The position numbers were made by a program, and so were the translations under genes. From a virus: a stretch of DNA of 62,604 bases. Of this stretch, positions 7-58,853 are shown piece by piece. Each line of letters starts with the position of its first letter. The first letter of the stretch is position 1. The notes under the pieces are model-generated. The model made no database searches, was not told where the DNA came from, and worked only from the letters and a program-made list of their open reading frames with translations. The stretch spans positions 1 to 62,604 of the IMG/VR virus record IMGVR_UViG_3300044619_000874, one strand, 5' to 3'.

Positions 7-132
7 GACAATGGATTCGTAGTACTTCAAAACCCAAAGGTGAAACATGAACGTCTCGTCTCTGCCCTCTGCCAATGAGGGTGCTCTGGTCTGGGTCAAT
101 CAAGCCGGTCGCGTCCGCGTTGACGTGGTTCG
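7..132. repeat. Left copy of 126-bp terminal direct repeat
   Basis: Positions 7-132 are identical to 62479-62604, the last bases of the window. Positions 1-4 also match but 5-6 do not. This is either a circular assembly overlap or a short terminal redundancy. It covers the start of the first gene, so that gene is interrupted only at the right end of the window. Confidence 0.95.
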
Positions 133-928
133 GTCGGTGTTCAACTCGCTCGGGCTGGGCAAGTGCCTGCCCCGCAGGGAGAAGCGATCCATCGCACTGC
201 GGATCGCGATCAAGGCGTGGCTGATCACCCGCTACGGGAAGAAGGACGCCCGCACCATGCGGCTGTACCCTCTCGACCGCCGGGTGCTCGGCTTCGAGGT
301 GAGGAGGAAGGTGGACGGGTCGGAGATGAACGACCACCCCTACGTCTGCACCGTGAAGGCCAACGAGAAGGGTGCGTGGGTCACCTATGCCGGTAGCCCT
401 GCACCGCAGAGCGAGACCGACAACGTCTCTCGTCTCTACCTCGAACGTGTCGAGTGGTACTGCCCGACCACGGTCGGATCGTTGATCAAGAGGGCGGTGG
501 CCTACCACTGGCTGGGCACCAGCCTCAAGTCCAACGGTGGGCTGTACTTCCTGCCGGGTTGCCACCTGCCTGACTATCAGGCACTGGCCGCTGGGCTGGA
601 GCGTAGCACCACCAACCCCGACTCGGAGTTGGTGATGACCGCTGCCACGTTCGACGTTCGTAACAACCCGGGCGTGGCACGGGACGCGATGCTCTCCCTG
701 CGTGCGGAGATCAGGTCTGCCACTGACGAGATCAACAACGACCTCGTCGGTGCTCACGAGATGACCGAGCAGGGGATCGCGTCTCGCAAGGCACGGCTCG
801 ACAACCTGCTCAAGCAGGCGGCTGAGTACGCCGCCCTGTTCGAGACCTCGCTCGATGACATGAAGGCAATGGTCGAGAGCACGAAGGACGCTCTCGCCAT
901 CGCCGAACTCGCAGAGATCAGCGGCTGA
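47..928 (+). CDS. Conserved phage protein upstream of AAA/VWA pair (DUF6744-like)
   Basis: A 293-aa protein of unknown function. It has no signal peptide or membrane segment. The last third (about residues 200-290) is charged and helical, with a likely coiled coil. From memory it resembles uncharacterised proteins (DUF6744 type) that sit next to MoxR-like ATPase genes in actinobacteriophages; this could not be searched. The start is an ATG with AAAGGTG five bases upstream. It is the first gene of a three-gene set with the AAA+ ATPase and the VWA protein. It ends in GGC-TGA, followed by a copy of the repeated GGCTAG motif and an intrinsic terminator, so it may be expressed at a different level from the next two genes. 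It is inferred to be a partner or substrate of the ATPase. Confidence 0.8.
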   Translation: MNVSSLPSANEGALVWVNQAGRVRVDVVRSVFNSLGLGKCLPRREKRSIALRIAIKAWLITRYGKKDARTMRLYPLDRRVLGFEVRRKVDGSEMNDHPYVCTVKANEKGAWVTYAGSPAPQSETDNVSRLYLERVEWYCPTTVGSLIKRAVAYHWLGTSLKSNGGLYFLPGCHLPDYQALAAGLERSTTNPDSELVMTAATFDVRNNPGVARDAMLSLRAEIRSATDEINNDLVGAHEMTEQGIASRKARLDNLLKQAAEYAALFETSLDDMKAMVESTKDALAIAELAEISG

Positions 929-937
929 TCACTGCGT

Positions 938-954
938 GCGGCTAGTAGTTCTAG
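938..954 (+). repeat. GGCTAG motif, copy 1
   Basis: Exact consensus GCGGCTAGTAGTTCTAG, ten bases after the stop of the first gene and directly abutting the stem of a terminator. The next start codon is 66 bases downstream. Confidence 0.85.
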
Positions 955-990
955 AGGGGGCGGGCAACTTCGCTCGCCCCCTCTTTGTTT
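954..990 (+). terminator. Rho-independent terminator after first gene
   Basis: A 12-bp GC-rich stem (954-965 with 972-983, one G-T pair), a six-base loop AACTTC, and a T-rich tail TTTGTTT. It separates the first gene from the AAA+ ATPase gene. Confidence 0.85.
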
Positions 991-1019
991 CCCAACACCT
1001 GTTTCCGGAGGACGATTCA

Positions 1020-2147
1020 ATGTTGACTGGCATCTTCTCACACCCGATGTGGTTCCTGTTCGTTGCAATGCAGGCCGGTATCCCGACGCACGTCGTCGGC
1101 ATGCCGGGCTGTGCCAAGACCGCACTGCACATGGCCTGTGCCAAGGCGATGGGTCGGCGGTTCATCCCGCTGATCGGATCGCAATGCACACCCGAGGACG
1201 TCGGTGGTCTGCCCGTCCCCGACATGGTGGCTCGGCTCTGCCGCATGCTGCCCATGTCGTGGGTCGAGGCGGTGCTCACGCCCGGTGGCTTCCTGTTCTT
1301 CGATGAGTGGGGCAACGTGTCGCCCGCCGTGCATGCCTCGCTGCTCACCGTGGTGCAGGACAAGCGAGTCGGCGACCATCACATCGACATCGACACGATC
1401 ATGGCGGCAGCGTCGAACCCAATCGACATCTGCCCCAATGGCACGCCGCTATCCCTGCCCACCACGAACAGGTTCTTCAACGCCAAGTGGCGGAACGACA
1501 CGCGAGCCTTCCTCAATGGGCTCGTCACCTGCGAGTGGGACGCACCCGAGTTGCCCATCCTGCCGGTGGACTGGAAGTCGTACGTCCCCAAGTGGGGCGG
1601 CATCGTCTCCTCGTTCCTCTCTCGCAACGAGGCGATGATCAACGTGCCACCCAAGGATGACACGACCCCCTCGTATCCAACCGAGCGGACGTGGCGTAAC
1701 GCGGTGATGTGCCTCGCCGCTGCGGACGCAGTCGGTGCGGACATGGATTCGGACACGACCAATGTCCGGCTCATGGTCGAGGGCAACGTGGGTGAGGTGG
1801 CGACCAGCCAGTTCGCACACTTCAAGCAGACGCTCGACCTCGTTGACCCGCTCGACATCGTCGACGGCAAGACGAAGTTCGTGCATCGGGATGACCGCCC
1901 CGACCTGACGATGACCGTGCTCGGTGCCGTGGCTACTGCCGTGTCGAACGCCACGACCTTCACGCCTGATCGATGGGATGCGGCGGCCATCTTCTTCGGG
2001 GAGATCGGTGCGACGGCACACCCCGAGATCGCACTCCGCTACACGCGGGTGCTGCTCGATGCGACGAAGACCTTCAAGCACTCGCCCAGTGCCAAGGTGA
2101 TGAAGCCGCTGATCGCGTTGAACAACTCGCTCAAGGTGAGCGGCTAG
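1020..2147 (+). CDS. MoxR-like AAA+ ATPase
   Basis: A 375-aa AAA+ ATPase. Visible motifs are Walker A GMPGCAKT (residues 27-34), Walker B FLFFDE (91-96) and a sensor-1 Asn in AAASNP (about 133). MoxR-type ATPases act as chaperones or remodellers with VWA proteins through MIDAS-dependent contacts, and the next gene is a VWA protein. The start at 1020 is chosen because CCGGAGGACG lies just upstream; a longer reading frame from 936 would begin inside the GGCTAG motif and translate the terminator. The gene ends in GGC-TAG, where the stop codon is itself part of the second GGCTAG motif. A cytoplasmic remodelling role acting with the downstream protein is inferred. Confidence 0.88.
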   Translation: MLTGIFSHPMWFLFVAMQAGIPTHVVGMPGCAKTALHMACAKAMGRRFIPLIGSQCTPEDVGGLPVPDMVARLCRMLPMSWVEAVLTPGGFLFFDEWGNVSPAVHASLLTVVQDKRVGDHHIDIDTIMAAASNPIDICPNGTPLSLPTTNRFFNAKWRNDTRAFLNGLVTCEWDAPELPILPVDWKSYVPKWGGIVSSFLSRNEAMINVPPKDDTTPSYPTERTWRNAVMCLAAADAVGADMDSDTTNVRLMVEGNVGEVATSQFAHFKQTLDLVDPLDIVDGKTKFVHRDDRPDLTMTVLGAVATAVSNATTFTPDRWDAAAIFFGEIGATAHPEIALRYTRVLLDATKTFKHSPSAKVMKPLIALNNSLKVSG

Positions 2148-2156
2148 TTGTTTTAG
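2140..2156 (+). repeat. GGCTAG motif, copy 2
   Basis: GCGGCTAGTTGTTTTAG, two changes from consensus. Its TAG is the stop codon of the AAA+ ATPase. A hairpin starts four bases later. Confidence 0.8.
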
Positions 2157-2159
2157 ATA

Positions 2160-2187
2160 CCCCGCTCGGCAACTGGGCCGGGCGGGG
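2160..2187 (+). terminator. Terminator-like hairpin between AAA and VWA genes
   Basis: An 11-bp stem (2160-2170 with 2177-2187, one G-T pair) with loop AACTGG. The shape matches the terminator at 954-990, but there is no T-run, so it may pause or process RNA rather than terminate. Confidence 0.5.
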
Positions 2188-2192
2188 CACGA

Positions 2193-2200
2193 CCATAAGC
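2193..2200 (+). promoter_or_regulatory. CCATAAGC motif upstream of VWA gene
   Basis: CCATAAGC lies 16 bases before the VWA start codon, just after the hairpin. The same octamer, or CCATAACA, precedes several other genes on both strands. It is a candidate -10-like promoter element. Confidence 0.4.
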
Positions 2201-2215
2201 ACAAGGGGATATGCG

Positions 2216-3826
2216 ATGGACTCGATCAGACTCAAGGTCGCACAGTTCAGGACGATGGTGAAAGACATCCTGCCCTACTTCACGGGCTATGTGTACGGCA
2301 TGATCGCCACCGAGAAGCGTGGCATCGGCACGATGGCAGTCGATGAGCGGGGTCGTCTCTACTACGACCCGGCCCTCGTCGAGCGGGTCGATCTCAAGGG
2401 CGGTCGGTTCGTGATCTGTCACGAGGCACTGCACGTTGCACTCGGCCACGCCCCGCTGGCACGCCGGTTCCTCGGTGACCGGCCGACCCCGGCCATGCTG
2501 CGGCGATACAACCTCGCCGCCGACTGCGTGGTCAACGGCATCCTCCAGTCGTGGTGGCACGAGGCACCGAGCGAGGAGGTTCTCGGTGGCAAGTTGGTGA
2601 CGCACGTCGCCCTCGGCCTGCCGCCGTCGCTCACCGTGACGCAGTACTACGCCCTGCTCGAACAGCAAGACGATCAGAAGAAGCAGGAGCGTGAGGCTGC
2701 ACGCAAGCAGCAACGAGACAACGACCCGCGCCAGCGTGGCAAGGGCGAGGATGGCGATGGCATGGAGGACGAAGGTGATGAAGACCAAGAAGATGGTTCG
2801 GCTGATCGTGATGACGACGAAGAAGAACGTGGCGGCCAATCGGATCGGGGTGATCACGACTCCGAGGATGGCGAAGACGGTAGCGACGGCGATTCGGAAG
2901 GCGGCGGAGACGAATCGTCCGACGAAGAAGATGGTGTTCCAGATGGGGACGCTGCCGGAGAAGGAGATACCGAGCGCGAAGGGGACGATGACGGTGATAG
3001 CGGTAGCGACGAGGGCAGTGGCGGCTCGGATTCGCAGGCTGGCGATCAAGGCCGGGGCGACGAGGACGATGCCGACGGGGAAGCCGACGGGGGATGGGCT
3101 TGCCGAGGTGGCGGCGGTGCTGACGGCCAGCCTCGCGAGTACGAGGACGAAGGCGAAGGCGGGTGGAAGGATCGCGAGTACTCGATGACCGACCAGTTGG
3201 AGCAGCGGATCGAGGAGGCAGAGCAGTCCTCTCCCGGTTCGGTGCCCGGCTGCCTCAAGGACGCGGTCGGTCTGCGGCTCCGGCCGCAGGCTGACCCGTT
3301 CGACGTGCTGCGTGCCACGGTGGCACGGGCCATCGCCTCGCCGGTCGGTGCCCCCGACTACACGCTGCGGAAGTTCAGCCGCAGGCAGCAGGCCGACGGG
3401 CCTCGGCTGCGTGGCGTGAAGAAGGAGATGCCCAACGTGGTTGTGATCCTCGACACGAGCGGCTCGATGCATGGCGACCGTGTCGCGAAGGCGATGGGCG
3501 TCATCGCCAAGGCAGTGAGCCGACTCAAGTCGGTGAAGGTGGTGTGCTACGACGCCGACCTGCATGGACGCAGGACGGTGACCTCGATGGCTGCCTTCTC
3601 ATGGCAGGGTGGTGGCGGCACCAACATGGGGAAGGCCATCGAGCAGGTCGACAAAGAGGATCGGCCCGACGCCATCGTGCTGGTGACCGACCTCGAAACC
3701 CCGTGGCCGGAGCGTATGCCCCGGGCCCGGGTGGTGGTGGCTGCGGTTGACTCGAAACCCTATTGGCTGGAGCGCGTGCCCGGCTGGGTGAAACTGTGTG
3801 ACGTCTCGAAAGGAGGTGACCGATGA
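2216..3826 (+). CDS. HExxH metallopeptidase-like / VWA domain protein (DUF2201-like)
   Basis: A 536-aa protein in three parts. The N-terminal domain has a zinc-protease-type motif HEALH (H69, E70, H73, with H78 in LGHAP), as in the DUF2201 putative-metallopeptidase family. Residues about 165-325 form a very acidic, Asp/Glu/Gly-rich low-complexity linker. The C-terminal VWA domain has the MIDAS motif DTSGS at about residue 413. MoxR ATPase plus VWA protein is a known functional pairing, and the ATPase gene is directly upstream. The start at 2216 has AAGGGG upstream; longer frames run back into the preceding gene. Whether the HExxH is catalytic cannot be judged here. The stop overlaps the start of the HNH gene (ATGA), implying translational coupling. 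Confidence 0.85.
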   Translation: MDSIRLKVAQFRTMVKDILPYFTGYVYGMIATEKRGIGTMAVDERGRLYYDPALVERVDLKGGRFVICHEALHVALGHAPLARRFLGDRPTPAMLRRYNLAADCVVNGILQSWWHEAPSEEVLGGKLVTHVALGLPPSLTVTQYYALLEQQDDQKKQEREAARKQQRDNDPRQRGKGEDGDGMEDEGDEDQEDGSADRDDDEEERGGQSDRGDHDSEDGEDGSDGDSEGGGDESSDEEDGVPDGDAAGEGDTEREGDDDGDSGSDEGSGGSDSQAGDQGRGDEDDADGEADGGWACRGGGGADGQPREYEDEGEGGWKDREYSMTDQLEQRIEEAEQSSPGSVPGCLKDAVGLRLRPQADPFDVLRATVARAIASPVGAPDYTLRKFSRRQQADGPRLRGVKKEMPNVVVILDTSGSMHGDRVAKAMGVIAKAVSRLKSVKVVCYDADLHGRRTVTSMAAFSWQGGGGTNMGKAIEQVDKEDRPDAIVLVTDLETPWPERMPRARVVVAAVDSKPYWLERVPGWVKLCDVSKGGDR

Positions 3827-4479
3827 CGTTCGATGAGCAGGTGGCTGCGTTGCGGGGGAAGGTTGAGCCGAAGTACTTCGACGGCCGAAAAGCCGAGGCC
3901 ACGCCGGAGCAGTGGGCCGCAAGGCTGGATCACACCCTGAGGTGGCGATGCGAGAACTGCGAGCGAGACCGCGAATCCACTCGCGAGTCCACCGCTCGCT
4001 GGCGGATGGCAAACCCGGAAAGATCACGGGAGGTGAATCGGAGGTGGGTGTCATCCGGCAGTCGCAACGAGTACCAGCGACGGCTGAGAAAGACGGACGT
4101 CCAGTTCCGGCTTTCGGAGAGTCTTCGGGTTCGACTCGCCCACGCAATGTCTGGCCGCAGTAGGGGGGGCTCTGCCGTGCGTGACCTCGGCTGCTCGGTC
4201 GCTGACCTCAAGGCCCACCTCGAACGGCAGTTCCTGCCGGGCATGACGTGGGACAACTGGGGCGTGGGTCAGGGCAAGTGGCAGATCGACCACATCTACC
4301 CGCTGGCACAGGCTGACCTGACCGTGCGGCTAGTAGTTCTAGCGGTGTGCAACTGGCGGAACCTACAGCCCCTGTGGTTCAAGGACAACAACCGCAAGGG
4401 CGATACCGTCACGCCTGAGGCGCAGCAACTGTTTGACGGTTTGGTTTCAGAGTTCACTGACAACGAAGGAGGTGCATGA
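3823..4479 (+). CDS. HNH endonuclease carrying the GGCTAG motif in its coding sequence
   Basis: A 218-aa protein. The C-terminal half has the phage HNH pattern: QIDHIYPL supplies the DH pair, followed by NLQPLW and KDNNRKG. The N-terminal half is Arg/Glu-rich with a CxxC (CENC), probably for DNA binding. Such proteins are usually homing or packaging-associated nucleases. The start ATG overlaps the VWA stop and has AAAGGAGGTG in front. Codons about 168-174 are encoded by an exact copy of the GGCTAG motif, where related proteins (from memory) have a DPEQ-type segment. The region therefore reads RLVVLAV instead. The catalytic HNH residues lie outside this stretch, so the protein may still be active. 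Confidence 0.85.
   Translation: MTFDEQVAALRGKVEPKYFDGRKAEATPEQWAARLDHTLRWRCENCERDRESTRESTARWRMANPERSREVNRRWVSSGSRNEYQRRLRKTDVQFRLSESLRVRLAHAMSGRSRGGSAVRDLGCSVADLKAHLERQFLPGMTWDNWGVGQGKWQIDHIYPLAQADLTVRLVVLAVCNWRNLQPLWFKDNNRKGDTVTPEAQQLFDGLVSEFTDNEGGA
4326..4342 (+). repeat. GGCTAG motif, copy 3 (inside HNH gene)
   Basis: Exact GCGGCTAGTAGTTCTAG, in the plus orientation but inside an open reading frame. It is read in a frame that avoids the TAG triplets. Confidence 0.85.
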
Positions 4480-5162
4480 TGATCGCTGAGTCTGACTGGC
4501 TCGAACCCTACTGCCGCCAGTGCTGCACTGTGTGGAACTCCAACTGGAGCACGGTGCCATACGGCAGGGTCGGATGGAAGAAAGCAGCGGAGAAGTACTG
4601 CGGTGCGTACTGGGGCAGGCTCACGCCAGAGCACTGCATGAGGATTCACTACCGCTTCACGCAGATGCGGAAGGAGATCGATGGCCTGTCGGTTGAGTAC
4701 GGCATGATCCGGGGGCCGAACTGGGATGACAAAACCCAGTGGCCCTACGCCGCCGTCGCTCGGTTCGATGATCAAGGCAAGATGCTGACCGGCTACTTGC
4801 TGCACCCCGGGGCTGCGTCTTGCCCGTACTACGTTCGCCACTCGCTGCCAGTGCCGGGCAAAGCAAGGGGCACAACGTATCGATCGCTGCGTACGGTCGA
4901 GGACATGATGCCGGTGATCAAGCCGGTGACCGGCGAGGCGGGCAGCCGCTCCGCCACAGTCACCATCACCCGCGATGACGTTGCCCGTACGGGTGACGTT
5001 CGCAAGGGGGACTGCTACCTGTTCGACCTGACGATGGAGCACTCGCCACGAGTGACCGTCGAAGGTAGGTACATGGGCAGGGCGGTTCAGTTCGGTGCGC
5101 TCGACGAGATCATTGATACCGTGCGGTGTCGGCTCGTGTTCGCTGACCTACCTAGTGCATGA
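4476..5162 (+). CDS. Hypothetical protein
   Basis: A 228-aa protein I do not recognise. It has several Cys residues near the N-terminus (CRQC around residues 13-16) that could bind metal, and no membrane segment. The start is the first of two adjacent ATGs; GAAGGAGGTG lies just upstream, and the ATG overlaps the HNH stop. It belongs to the coupled run from the VWA gene onward. No catalytic motif is obvious. Confidence 0.7.
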   Translation: MMIAESDWLEPYCRQCCTVWNSNWSTVPYGRVGWKKAAEKYCGAYWGRLTPEHCMRIHYRFTQMRKEIDGLSVEYGMIRGPNWDDKTQWPYAAVARFDDQGKMLTGYLLHPGAASCPYYVRHSLPVPGKARGTTYRSLRTVEDMMPVIKPVTGEAGSRSATVTITRDDVARTGDVRKGDCYLFDLTMEHSPRVTVEGRYMGRAVQFGALDEIIDTVRCRLVFADLPSA

Positions 5163-5170
5163 GGTGTGCG

Positions 5171-5260
5171 ATGGATATCCAGTGGCTGCTGACGGTGATC
5201 GAATCGTGGGCGTTCATCGCCCTTCAGTTCTACGTCTTCTCATTCATCAGGAGAAACTGA
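5171..5260 (+). CDS. Small membrane protein (29 aa)
   Basis: A 29-aa reading frame starting MDIQWLLT and ending FIRRN. Nearly all of it is one hydrophobic helix with a basic C-terminus, so it would be a single-pass inner-membrane peptide. It has GAGGTG five bases before the ATG and sits between two genes of the same strand; its end is two bases before the start codon of the serine recombinase. Size and topology fit a tiny holin-like or regulatory membrane peptide, but nothing more specific can be said. Confidence 0.55.
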   Translation: MDIQWLLTVIESWAFIALQFYVFSFIRRN

Positions 5261-5262
5261 CC

Positions 5263-6042
5263 ATGAAGATTGCATACGGATACGGGCGGCACAGCACGAG
5301 CAAGCAGGCAGTGACTGCCGAGGTGCAGGAAGCGTCGGTGATGGATCAGTACGAGCGGCTGCTCAAACCCAAGGGCTACTCGTGGGGCGGCTGGTTCTAC
5401 GACGCCGCAGTGTCGGGCAGCAAGGACTTCAGCGACCGACCCGAGGGGGTGCGGGTGTACATGATGGCTGGCGAGGGCGACGCCGTGATCTGCCACAACT
5501 CCGACCGCATGTTCCGGTCGCAGGCTGATGCAGAGAAGACGGTGCTGCTGCTCCAGTCTCGGGGCGTGCAGATCGTGATGCCCGACCTGCCCTCGTTCGA
5601 GAAGGCTGACCCTCGGATGCTGGCTCGCATCCGGTTCGTCATCGCCCAGTGGGAGCGGGAGAAGATCGGCGAGCGCACCTCGTCTGGCATGCAACGCATG
5701 TCAGCCAAGGGCAAGAAGTTCGGTGGCCGTATCCAGTCGGTGCCACTCGGGTGGCGTAACACTGGCGGCGGCATCGCACCATGCCCGGAGGAGCGGGCGA
5801 GGATCGAGGAGATGGCCCGCATGCACGCCGAGGGTGCGTCGTTCGAGCGCATCTCGATGATCGTTTCCTACCCGCCCCACAACTGGCGTCGTCCGCTCGC
5901 CCGCAAGGGTGGCGGCGCATGGTCGAAGCGTTACGTCAGGCTGGCGATCAAGGCTCGGTCTCTGGGGTATCCTCGCTGCTACCTTTATGATCGGCAACAC
6001 AGAGTCGCAGTCTGTCAAGCGCAGCCAGCAGCCTGCCCTTGA
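5263..6042 (+). CDS. Serine recombinase (resolvase family)
   Basis: A 259-aa protein. The N-terminal resolvase domain has YGRHSTSKQ, with Ser11 the likely nucleophile, followed by DRPEG, a HNSDRMFRS segment and the long E-helix ending in EREKIGERT. The C-terminal part (about residues 145-250) is a recombinase-type DNA-binding region with PLGW and WSKRYVRLAIKAR. It is shorter than large serine integrases. The start follows CAGGAG at normal spacing. The 3' end overlaps the convergent sigma-like gene by 95 bases, so one C-terminus may be shorter than drawn. The genome also has a tyrosine integrase, so this enzyme may resolve genomes or invert DNA rather than integrate. Confidence 0.88.
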   Translation: MKIAYGYGRHSTSKQAVTAEVQEASVMDQYERLLKPKGYSWGGWFYDAAVSGSKDFSDRPEGVRVYMMAGEGDAVICHNSDRMFRSQADAEKTVLLLQSRGVQIVMPDLPSFEKADPRMLARIRFVIAQWEREKIGERTSSGMQRMSAKGKKFGGRIQSVPLGWRNTGGGIAPCPEERARIEEMARMHAEGASFERISMIVSYPPHNWRRPLARKGGGAWSKRYVRLAIKARSLGYPRCYLYDRQHRVAVCQAQPAACP

Positions 6043-6505
6043 TCGTACGCCAGTCGCGGTCACGCTCCCGGCCCAGTGACATCAGCGACCGGCCCTCGAT
6101 TACATGGGCCTCGATCAGGGCCCGGTCGTCGGGCGTCATCTCACGCAGGCAGGCGAGGGCCTGCTGCTTCTGGTCGGTGGAGAAGGCTATGCCCAGTGCC
6201 TTGCCCATGTCGATCCGCTCGTTCGCCGCCTCGCGGGAACGCTTCACCCGACGCACCTCCTTGAGCAGGGCGTGGCGAATCGCAGTGCCGTAGTAGGTGG
6301 TGGGCTTCGATTTCGATGGGTCGTAGCAGAACGACGCATCGACCACGGCCATCTCGGCTACGCTGATCATGTCGCAGTGGCGGATCAGCCTCTCGTAGCA
6401 CAGGTGCTTGGCGATGAACGCACGCACGGCGGCTGGCACCAGCGGCAGGGCAGCCTCGGCTCGCTCCTTCTGCTCGTCTGTCAGCCGCCGCTGCTTGCGT
6501 GTCAC
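5948..6505 (-). CDS. Sigma-70-family-like sigma factor
   Basis: A 185-aa protein. Residues about 60-105 resemble sigma region 2: a DPSKSKPTTYY segment followed by a basic helix, HALLKEVRRVKR. Residues about 125-175 resemble region 4 (DDRALIEAHV...SLMSLG...RTIKGRLLAALDRL), a helix-turn-helix. It would direct RNA polymerase to phage promoters, possibly late ones. It is the last gene of the minus-strand recombination operon. The GTG start at 6505 is chosen because GTGA overlaps the stop of the upstream zinc-ribbon gene; a longer version from 6538 is possible. A distant region-4-only regulator is the main alternative. Confidence 0.75.
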   Translation of the reverse strand: MTRKQRRLTDEQKERAEAALPLVPAAVRAFIAKHLCYERLIRHCDMISVAEMAVVDASFCYDPSKSKPTTYYGTAIRHALLKEVRRVKRSREAANERIDMGKALGIAFSTDQKQQALACLREMTPDDRALIEAHVIEGRSLMSLGRERDRDWRTIKGRLLAALDRLRLCVADHKGSSEDTPETEP

Positions 6506-6681
6506 TTCATCTGCCTCGTCCAGACGTCGGCTCGCCACTCCCTTGCACAGGCCCGCTCGTAGCAGAGCAGGCAGAGGTGTGCATCAGTGGGCATGCCGCT
6601 GCTGTTGACCTTCACGGTCGCAGCACGGTGGCCGCAATCGGAGCACGGACTAGCGGTCGCGGAGGCGGCGGAGTACGCCAA
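6502..6681 (-). CDS. Small zinc-ribbon protein
   Basis: About 59 aa with two Cys pairs (CSDCGH and CLLCYERAC) that should form a treble-clef or zinc-ribbon fold. The frame is open further upstream but overlaps the preceding gene. A TTG near 6681 with GGAGG some way upstream is the most plausible start, and it is uncertain. The stop is coupled to the sigma-like gene (GTGA). It may act as a small DNA- or polymerase-binding protein; this is inferred from the zinc pattern and context only. Confidence 0.5.
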   Translation of the reverse strand: MAYSAASATASPCSDCGHRAATVKVNSSGMPTDAHLCLLCYERACAREWRADVWTRQMK

Positions 6682-12919: not shown

Positions 12920-13884
12920 CGACTTACTCCTTTGAAGGCCCACTCTGGAAACTGAAGGACGTTGATCTCGCCGTATCCGCTGGGCAGCCAGTGGCCGCTC
13001 TCTTTGCGGGCCTCGATCTCGTCGAGGTCGTCGGTGATCCACTGCTCGCACATGGCGACGAGCGGCTCGGGGAGTTCGCACACTTGGACTTGGTGCGATG
13101 GCGTCGTGGAGCAAGCCACGAACGTGAGGCGTTGGTCAGAGAGCCCAGCCGCAGCGGCGATCTGGGAGTACCAAGCGGAGGCGTAGTGGTAGCCGTGGTC
13201 GAGGCAGCCCCTCCACCACGATTCGAGTGGGCGGGCGTCGCGGCACGACTTCCAGTCCAGCAGCACGCCGCCGTGAGTGACGGCGTCGTAGCGGCAGCGG
13301 ATCAGGTGGCCGTCGGGTCGGCGATAGAACGCCGAGAGTTCGTGCTTCCAGATATCCTCGTAGAGGTCTCTCGCCATTGCGTTCGAGAAGAACTGCGAGA
13401 GGATCGCCTCGACGATGGCGAGGTTCTCTTCCGACGCGACGATGGCGTCAGGCCCCTGCTCATCACGCCACGCCTTCGCGGCCTTGGAGGAGGAGAGCCC
13501 GCCGCCTGCGGTGCGGAACTCCTCCGGTACCGAGACGAGGTGAGAGCGGTACCGGGTCGGGCCCAGTTCGAGGGCCGCGTGTACAAGTGTTCCGAGGTCG
13601 GTAGCCGCCGACGAGAAGGCCGGGCGGGTGCGAGCGATGTGTCGCTCGTGGAACCAAACCGGCCCGTGGTAGCGGAAGTCCCAGCCGATGGACTTCGAGG
13701 GGCAGGGGAGGGTATGGTAGACGTGGTTCGGCAGGCCCTCCACTAGGAGGGTCTGGCCGGGCTGCAACCCCTCAAGGGCGGCAAGAAGTTCCGCAAGAGT
13801 CGGGGCGACTGGATTCGAACCAGCGACCTCTACGTCCCGAACGTAGCGCGAACCCTCGCCGCCGGTCTCAAGGAGATCGGCCAT
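12916..13884 (-). CDS. PD-(D/E)XK exonuclease, RecB/RecE-like
   Basis: About 322 aa in the form drawn. Motifs are GTLVHAALE (motif I region), RYDAVTHGGVLLDWKS (motif II-III with D and DxK), and a helix with HYASAWYSQ. It would resect double-stranded ends for the ERF protein encoded next, which overlaps its stop. The start is uncertain. ATGs at 13884 or 13914 lie upstream of, and translate, a tRNA-Pro fragment (reading VAGSNPVAPT). No ribosome site precedes either, and a GTG at 13743 after the fragment is possible. The nuclease domain itself begins after the fragment. Confidence 0.78.
   Translation of the reverse strand: MADLLETGGEGSRYVRDVEVAGSNPVAPTLAELLAALEGLQPGQTLLVEGLPNHVYHTLPCPSKSIGWDFRYHGPVWFHERHIARTRPAFSSAATDLGTLVHAALELGPTRYRSHLVSVPEEFRTAGGGLSSSKAAKAWRDEQGPDAIVASEENLAIVEAILSQFFSNAMARDLYEDIWKHELSAFYRRPDGHLIRCRYDAVTHGGVLLDWKSCRDARPLESWWRGCLDHGYHYASAWYSQIAAAAGLSDQRLTFVACSTTPSHQVQVCELPEPLVAMCEQWITDDLDEIEARKESGHWLPSGYGEINVLQFPEWAFKGVSR
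13800..13846 (-). other. Putative attP: 3' part of a tRNA-Pro(CGG)
   Basis: On the minus strand this is an anticodon arm (5-bp stem, loop TTCGGGA with anticodon CGG), variable loop, T-arm with TTCGAAT, the 3' acceptor strand CGCCCCG and the discriminator A. The matching 5' acceptor strand and D-arm are missing, so it is not a functional tRNA. Tyrosine integrases commonly use tRNA 3' ends as attachment sites and rebuild the tRNA on integration. The integrase gene starts 121 bases away. Confidence 0.82.
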
Positions 13885-57772: not shown

Positions 57773-57797
57773 CCCCCCTCAACACCTTGACGCGATG

Positions 57798-57830
57798 CGG
57801 CCCGTAGCAGGGCGTTCCTGCTGCGGGCCG
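57798..57830 (+). terminator. Hairpin before GP88-like gene
   Basis: A 14-bp stem (57798-57811 with 57817-57830, one G-T pair) with a 5-base loop, followed by TTCGCATTT. It is likely a terminator or attenuator. Confidence 0.6.
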
Positions 57831-57851
57831 TTCGCATTTGGAGACTCTTCG

Positions 57852-58853
57852 ATGATCGCTCTCAACACCGTGATGCCACGCCTGCCCAAGATGGGCAAGC
57901 CTCCCCGGGCTCGTACTGCCAAGGCCAAGGGGCCGATCTTCCCGCGTCGTGCTGCGATGGAACTGGCACAGTTCGTGATGGATGCCCCGTCTGCCGCCGC
58001 CATCGCCGCGAAGTGTCGATGGATGATCGAAGACATGGTCGCCCGGTTTCCCGGCCGTGGGCCGCACGTTTCGGGCTCGTGGGAATGGATGCTCGCACGC
58101 ATCGCCGACGCCATCGACAACGGCACCGATGCCTTCACGCTCATCAGCATGGACGGCAACACGAAGTTGCCCTTCGCGTCGTGGTCATGCCTGCCTGTCG
58201 TGACGTGCCCGGGCATGGGTGCGTGCGGGAAGTTCTGCTACAGCCTGCGGGCATGGCGGAACCCATCGGCCTACGGTCGCCAACTGTGGGCGACCATCGT
58301 GCTGCGGTTCTATCGCCGCCGCATCATCGATGCGTGGAAGGCCCTCCCCGCTGGCATCGTCGTGCGGCTGTACGTTGACGGTGACTTCGACTCGGCCGAG
58401 ACGCTGCGGTTCTGGTTCAACCTGATCGCCCAACGGCCCGACCTGCGGGTCTACGGGTACTCGAAATCGTGGCACCTGCTGATCGATTGGCACCGTGCGG
58501 GACATACGTTCCCGGCCAACTACTACGTCAACGTGTCGAGCGGGTCGAAGTACGACAACGACCCTGCGATGCGGCAGGCCATGCTCGACCTGCCCGTGGC
58601 TCGCGGCGAGTTCATCGTCGTGAAGGTCAAGGGTGAGGGCACGCTCTGGCCGAAGGGTTTCCAGCGGTACCAGTCCAAGGCATACCACGAGGCGGTCTAC
58701 GCCGAGGCCAAGCGTCTCGGCATCAAGGGCGTGTCGTGCGGCGGTGACTGCGGTGCGTGCGGCAACGGCACCCACTGGTGCGGTGCGATCCAGCCCAACG
58801 GCACCGTGAAGCAGTCGCTGATCGGCCTGCCCATCCTTATCGGTGCCCACTGA
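57852..58853 (+). CDS. GP88-family phage protein (333 aa)
   Basis: 333 aa. The region SWSCLPVVTCPGMGACGKFCYSLRAW matches the phage 'Gene product 88' family (from memory), with clustered Cys residues at the core. A second Cys group lies near the C-terminus (CGGDCGACGNGTHWCG). The Cys spacing suggests metal binding. Function is not established. The ATG at 57852 has GGAG upstream at about eight bases. It is flanked by GGCTAG motifs on both sides. Confidence 0.75.
   Translation: MIALNTVMPRLPKMGKPPRARTAKAKGPIFPRRAAMELAQFVMDAPSAAAIAAKCRWMIEDMVARFPGRGPHVSGSWEWMLARIADAIDNGTDAFTLISMDGNTKLPFASWSCLPVVTCPGMGACGKFCYSLRAWRNPSAYGRQLWATIVLRFYRRRIIDAWKALPAGIVVRLYVDGDFDSAETLRFWFNLIAQRPDLRVYGYSKSWHLLIDWHRAGHTFPANYYVNVSSGSKYDNDPAMRQAMLDLPVARGEFIVVKVKGEGTLWPKGFQRYQSKAYHEAVYAEAKRLGIKGVSCGGDCGACGNGTHWCGAIQPNGTVKQSLIGLPILIGAH

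Follow-up and report, generated by a model that had tools for sequence, protein, structure and literature searches.

The three-gene locus and its products

IMG/VR virus record IMGVR_UViG_3300044619_000874, a phage genome of 62,604 bases that was analysed over its whole length (hereafter the window), encodes between positions 47 and 3826 three open genes, all on the plus strand, which specify a protein termed p1, a MoxR-type AAA+ ATPase, and a DUF2201 protein that combines a metallopeptidase-like domain with a VWA domain (Table 1). An earlier note on this DNA had delimited the same three genes, and its coordinates hold. Because the two ends of the record share 126 exact bases, the genome is very probably complete (circular by overlap); p1, the first gene, is therefore also complete, and the genes at the right end of the window lie directly upstream of it. 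The trio sits on the plus strand among accessory genes, and the minus strand holds most of the structural genes. The start of the ATPase is better placed at ATG 1020, since it is preceded by a Shine-Dalgarno sequence (GGAGGA at 1007) and since the stretch between GTG 936 and position 1019 lacks the distribution of GC over codon positions seen in the ATPase gene. The DUF2201 gene starts at ATG 2216 rather than at the mechanically assigned position 1973, and with this start the HEALH motif falls exactly on the residues H69-H73 that had been claimed for it.

Table 1. Coordinates of the three genes, their principal motifs and domains, and the hairpin between the first two genes.
Feature	Position	Strand	Description and basis
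p1	47..928	+	293 residues; distant DUF6744 similarity, predicted helical C-terminal part
Terminator-like hairpin in the p1/ATPase gap	953..984	+	13-bp stem, then TTGTTT
MoxR-type AAA+ ATPase	1020..2147	+	375 residues; AAA_5, phrog_1297, NorQ match
Walker A GMPGCAKT, residues 27-34	1098..1121	+	sequence and alignment
Walker B acidic pair D95-E96	1302..1307	+	invariant in alignment
DUF2201 protein: metallopeptidase-like domain, acidic linker, VWA domain	2216..3826	+	536 residues; Pfam, AlphaFold2
HEALHVALGH, residues 69-78 (HE-x2-H-x4-H motif)	2420..2449	+	homologue alignment, AlphaFold2 model
N99-x-A-x-D103-x3-N107, second conserved motif	2510..2536	+	homologue alignment, AlphaFold2 model
Acidic low-complexity linker, residues 160-325	2693..3190	+	composition; mostly predicted disordered
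VWA domain with metal-ion-dependent adhesion site (MIDAS: D413, S415, S417, T469, D492)	3425..3814	+	alignment, fold match

Membership of the ATPase in the MoxR type is borne out by its Walker A, Walker B (FFDE) and sensor 1 (N133) motifs, by the AAA_5 and MoxR profiles, and by the adjacent gene for a VWA-domain partner: the protein scores 24.0 bits against AAA_5 (cut-off 22) and matches phrog_1297 at 7.5e-36, and its family profile, compared with solved structures, finds NorQ at 3e-9 and 2r44 at 2e-8. The partner matches both DUF2201_N, a putative metallopeptidase family (1.4e-26), and the VWA-like DUF2201 family (1.1e-13), so that PF13203 and PF09967 are each above their cut-offs in a single protein (94.2 versus 23.2 bits and 51.9 versus 26.4 bits, respectively). 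Together with the Walker motifs and an intact MIDAS, these matches uphold the earlier description of the locus as a MoxR AAA+ ATPase adjoining a HExxH/VWA protein.

Residue conservation was counted over 34 diverged DUF2201 homologues, some of them near-identical. The HE-x2-H-x4-H motif is complete in 32 of the 34, the exceptions being Rhodothermus phage RM378 (EEIIH) and Nonomuraea (HQVTH), and the HExxH glutamate is present in 33. The second motif is also kept (N99 in 33/34, D103 in 32/34, N107 in 30/34) and possibly offers a third metal ligand, for which the candidates are H78, present in every homologue, and D103. At the MIDAS, of which T469 is also a residue, D413, S415, S417 and D492 are identical in 34/34, making the VWA metal site slightly more constant than the peptidase site. 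Conservation across such diverged proteins indicates that the motifs are not due to chance. Judged by their motifs, the RM378 and Nonomuraea variants look catalytically dead, with the VWA part retained.

An AlphaFold2 model of the DUF2201 protein gives its N-terminal domain predicted local distance difference test (pLDDT) values of mostly 75-89 over residues 1-110 and about 90 over 141-170, and a VWA domain of moderate confidence. HEALH lies on a helix (residues 60-75, pLDDT in the 80s) with the motif running just past it, and the second motif lies on helix 92-113. The structure prediction proposed in the earlier note as a check for a zinc site places HEALH on a helix of a well-predicted domain of zincin-like fold. 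Foldseek matches the N-terminal domain to selecase (4qhi; root-mean-square deviation 2.3 over 78 columns, prob 1.00). With a profile of the same domain, selecase comes first (E 0.0017), followed by M48 peptidases (0.07-0.3) and projannalysin (1.2), and the selecase and M48 alignments fall on HExxH; these matches are individually weak, and every listed hit is a zincin-type peptidase. In predicted fold and in profile, the N-terminal domain therefore resembles zincin peptidases, with selecase as its nearest solved relative. Selecase (MJ1213) and the minigluzincins share with it a small zinc-peptidase fold bearing HExxH, but are stand-alone proteins, and the peptidase activity of the phage domain is putative. 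When the whole model was searched by fold, VWA domains dominated (Z up to 12.6, with NorD 9qhe_G at 3.4e-4 among the top matches), leaving the selecase match alone to inform on the N-terminal domain. Among viral models, some of the best-matching phage proteins carry a metallopeptidase or VWA-like annotation, and another match is ORF892 of Acidianus two-tailed virus (5.3e-5).

Two short stand-alone viral models in BFVD were also matched, V5UNV5 of Shigella phage pSb-1 (153 residues) and A0A2L0UZH0 of Agrobacterium phage Atu_ph07 (144 residues), with template modelling scores of 0.72 and 0.58 over the target; one of them is named as a metallopeptidase domain, and it may be that some phages encode the peptidase part and the VWA part in genes of their own. 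The label 'HNH endonuclease' attached to this family (PHROG 1314; RM378 NP_835726.1) was rejected, as the protein matches DUF2201 and no HNH family; the label looks like a spreading annotation error.

The acidic linker emphasized in the earlier note is real: residues 160-325 include 40 aspartates and 26 glutamates (66/166, or 40%) for a net charge of -51, the count reaches 68 over a stretch of 160 residues, and pLDDT is below 50 over 186-322, where the model is disordered. It is not a defining part of the pair, because most homologues have only 20-60 residues at this place; that of a related phage described below has about 46, and a few have long linkers, one of which, at locus L069, is also acidic (32% over 141 residues). 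Among the phages compared, this one stands apart in how long and how charged its linker is, and the character is mostly lineage-specific. In NorD, a disordered linker is remodelled by the partner ATPase (PMC9976466, PMC13036017), and a flexible linker is accordingly to be expected in a machine of this kind.

Conservation of the pair and the place of p1

Neither p1 nor the VWA protein, used singly to scan viral contigs, gave any find; scans of genome collections returned no relative, and alignments of distant homologues contained no usable conserved stretch. A degenerate DNA pattern built on HExxHxxxxH retrieved 23 viral contigs, 16 of which encode a relative of the VWA protein together with a clear PHROG 1297 (ATPase family) gene. 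The ATPase gene is upstream of the VWA gene and on the same strand in all 16 loci, with gaps ranging from a small overlap to 2.4 kb; several of these loci are near-identical, so that the independent cases number nearer eleven. The same pair was found in Rhodothermus phage RM378, Pantoea phage G19, an N4-like Escherichia phage (gp24/gp25), cyanophage S-TIM54 and Thermus phage YS40_Isch, and on plasmids of the actinobacteria Mycolicibacterium, Rhodococcus and Euzebya. Distance matrices of the ATPase and the VWA protein are correlated over 22 pairs (r = 0.79; 0 of 2000 permutations as high), which shows co-inheritance; shared descent alone would also yield a correlation.

The pair and its domain fusion have been described before, in jumbo phages in 2021 (PMC7824862) and, as genes 24 and 25, among the core genes of N4-like phages (Schitoviridae) in 2014 (PMC4193335); the present locus is a new example. 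The N4 genes have the same order and strand, a MoxR-type ATPase followed by a DUF2201-type protein, and gp25 possesses HELWHVGLLH and a DTSGS MIDAS like those of the DUF2201 protein studied here, but identity is only about 20%, the gp25 linker is short and not acidic, and the N4-like phage record tested has no DUF6744 match. Group 2.2 jumbo phages have the same fusion and pairing, a likeness drawn from their description (Iyer 2021, PMC7824862); that study covers jumbo phages, whereas the present genome is one of 62 kb with p1 as an extra gene and an acidic linker that is very long. The Rhodococcus and Mycolicibacterium pairs retain the order and HExxHx4H at about 29-33% identity in the matched parts, but are plasmid-borne and without a DUF6744 match. 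What is added here is that the present pair and N4 gp24/gp25 are members of a single family having a selecase-like site; that there are natural losses of the catalytic residues with an intact MIDAS; that the two genes are co-inherited; and that p1 is lineage-specific. The family is thus a core pair of N4-like phages with further occurrences in cyanophages, in phages of Thermus and Rhodothermus, and on plasmids of actinobacteria.

At seven loci (L010, L012, L016, L019, L022, L027 and L030), viral contigs encode larger DUF2201-type proteins (608-657 residues where complete) along with a protein of about 900 residues that weakly matches MoxR; this may be another form of the system, built of bigger proteins. 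Three of these (L010, L022 and L027), with DUF2201 proteins of 600 residues and a second AAA type, were set aside as a different arrangement.

For p1, the sole significant family match is to DUF6744 (24.2 bits, E 1.9e-5), short of the Pfam cut-off of 27; the resemblance is found independently in p1 and in its one known homologue, which is 20% identical (phmmer 3.8e-10) and adjoins the same MoxR-VWA pair. This homologue is encoded by IMGVR_UViG_3300031951_000241 (loci L056/L072), where p1, ATPase and VWA protein follow in the same order with identities of 20, 27 and 36%. Much of that genome is related to the present one, with 58% identity for terminase, 46% for portal and 33% for helicase among other proteins, so conservation of the trio is that of a single phage lineage. 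Beyond this contig p1 has no homologue among the viral contigs and no match among phages or plasmids, and profile comparison of 280 open reading frames (ORFs) around other MoxR-VWA pairs yielded no further relative. Nothing better than E 0.33 was found for p1 among solved structures, and its structure model (pLDDT 40) is too poor for use. The search for the same trio in other phages, which the earlier note had advised, has thus turned up one related phage, and of the proposed three-gene set it is the pair that is widespread. A GC-rich hairpin occupies the gap between p1 and the ATPase in the related phage also, and because it separates the two genes in both phages, their co-expression is not required.

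We give about an even chance to the view that the functional unit is the MoxR-DUF2201 pair, with p1 a neighbour within the lineage, a view compatible with any mechanism. Of the 16 paired viral loci, 15 lack p1, and, its one relative aside, so do the 280 neighbouring ORFs; this speaks for the view, as do the hairpin and the faster evolution of p1 relative to the pair (20% identity versus 27% for the ATPase and 36% for the VWA protein). Retention of the order p1-MoxR-VWA in two phages that have diverged to 58% terminase identity speaks against it, as does the DUF6744-like character found independently in both p1 proteins. p1 is a possible accessory rather than a proven third part, and may be a lineage-specific accessory or client of the pair. 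We consider it doubtful that p1 serves specifically as a third subunit, or as the client, in a three-component, ATP-gated process of proteolysis, in which the acidic linker would act as an internal MIDAS ligand that keeps the machine off until displaced by p1 or the client.

A set of three genes that includes MoxR and a VWA protein, with a weak bpMoxR match (22.5 bits), also recalls the published ternary conflict systems, in which VMAP, iSTAND, FtsH or a beta-propeller accompanies MoxR and vWA, and the earlier note had pointed to related sets of this kind. The bpMoxR score is below the cut-off of 27, which does not place the ATPase in the propeller class; p1 has no Pfam or PADLOC match to the published third components; no effector domain was found; and PADLOC recognized no system component, a weak AAA-domain match aside. 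We therefore rejected this explanation as highly improbable.

Proposed function of the pair

The two proteins are most simply read as a client-remodelling apparatus consisting of a MoxR ATPase and a metallopeptidase-like/VWA protein, in agreement with the earlier note. Their close solved relatives, NorQ and NorD, likewise comprise a MoxR ring and a VWA partner with an N-terminal domain and a flexible, disordered linker; the VWA domain inserts a finger into the pore of the ATPase, and the linker is proposed to be stretched as ATP is hydrolysed, while the MIDAS contacts acidic residues of the client (PMC9976466, PMC13036017). NorD differs in that no HExxH domain has been described in it and in that its host client is known. 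A viral MoxR-VWA pair with a demonstrated interaction is p618/p892 of Acidianus two-tailed virus, in which p618 binds p892 and p892 raises the ATPase activity of p618 (PMC4124505); here there is no peptidase domain (PMC7824862), and the archaeal virus does not have the virion of a tailed phage.

On the analogy of NorQD, we tentatively favour a remodelling machine that is powered by ATP and has a peptidase tethered to it, with a phage complex as its most likely client. Six ATPase subunits would assemble into a ring, which the VWA domain of the DUF2201 protein would plug while holding the client through the MIDAS metal. Hydrolysis of ATP would exert a pull on the linker and open up the client, and the selecase-like zinc domain at the N-terminus would clip or trim the client. 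Most likely this client would be a phage protein complex of virion or replication parts, handled during assembly or maturation; for the jumbo-phage MoxR and metallopeptidase-vWA pair, virion assembly and peptide processing have been proposed (PMC7824862), and the Acidianus virus pair also points to a client of this sort. The analysis itself establishes the protein families, their motifs and how well these are conserved, the order of the genes and their joint inheritance, and a predicted fold; ring and complex formation, the binding of metal, cleavage, the client and any part played by p1 are inferred. Several considerations weigh against this account: the sequence link to selecase is weak and confined to about 40 residues; and cleavage cannot be needed everywhere, because RM378 and Nonomuraea have lost catalytic residues with the MIDAS intact. 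In addition, the location among accessory genes and the middle, not late, expression class of N4 genes 24 and 25 (PMC4193335) would fit a non-virion client equally well, and leave room for a host or replication client.

The same location, with GP88-family, serine recombinase and endonuclease VII-like genes and on the strand opposite most structural genes, and the same N4 timing are what would be expected if the pair struck host proteins early, in takeover or counter-defence, with the VWA domain selecting a host complex, MoxR opening it and the peptidase inactivating it. We judge this unlikely, though worth keeping in view: the pair belongs to the core gene set of N4-like phages and is spread over widely differing hosts as well as on plasmids, unlike a narrow counter-defence gene, and no defence-family match was found beyond a generic AAA domain. 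Less probable still is a machine that serves metal insertion or a cofactor, in the manner of NorQD or of the cobalt and magnesium chelatases, in which the HExxH domain would carry metal to a client without cutting peptide. The standing of NorQ and NorD among the closest solved relatives, the shared domain layout of NorD (PMC9976466) and a weak match of the ATPase to PHROG 249, a porphyrin biosynthesis family, would agree with it; the near-universal HExxH glutamate, needed by a peptidase and not by a metal carrier, argues otherwise, and no gene for a metalloenzyme client was seen near the pair.

The present data put the family in a testable form, with a peptidase site and a MIDAS that are separately mutable, and the natural variants in which the peptidase is lost and the MIDAS persists give an indication of which activity is more fundamental. 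Discovery of the client would explain a gene pair that is annotated in phage genomes as unknown or wrongly as 'HNH endonuclease'.

Neighbouring genes and a repeated intergenic motif

The endonuclease VII-like ORF (3823-4479) adjoins the trio, and the GP88-family gene (57795-58853, plus strand; 6.4e-16) is upstream of it; at locus L075, a protein that by eye resembles GP88 (4811-5503, plus strand) is likewise encoded upstream of a MoxR-VWA pair. A small serine recombinase is encoded 3' of the trio both in the window (5260-6042, plus strand) and in the related phage (L056 2581-3507, minus strand), with 36% identity, which suggests a temperate phage or an invertible element. The product of 5948-6538 (minus strand), which has a homologue in the related phage, is a possible phage sigma factor by its weak match to sigma-70 region 2 (E 0.0011, below the cut-off). 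A tRNA candidate at 13803-13863 (minus strand) is probably not real, scoring 29.3 in Rfam against a threshold of 29 with no call by ARAGORN.

The sequence GCGGCTAGTNGTTYT occurs in eight copies, one mismatch allowed, at positions 938, 2140, 4326, 57472, 57756, 58864, 61281 and 62380, all on the plus strand, where 0.04 copies would be expected by chance. Most copies coincide with a stop codon or follow it closely, and several are just 5' of a strong terminator-like hairpin. In being one-directional and situated between genes, the repeats are reminiscent of mycobacteriophage stoperators or of a termination or antitermination signal, and their role is putative. A search of other viral contigs did not find the 18-base consensus, and no such repeat family was seen in the related phage. 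One copy (4326-4340) is inside the endonuclease VII-like ORF, at the point where DNA similarity to Virus Rctr197k (4171-4324) ends, and its being kept within coding sequence points to a signal at the level of DNA.

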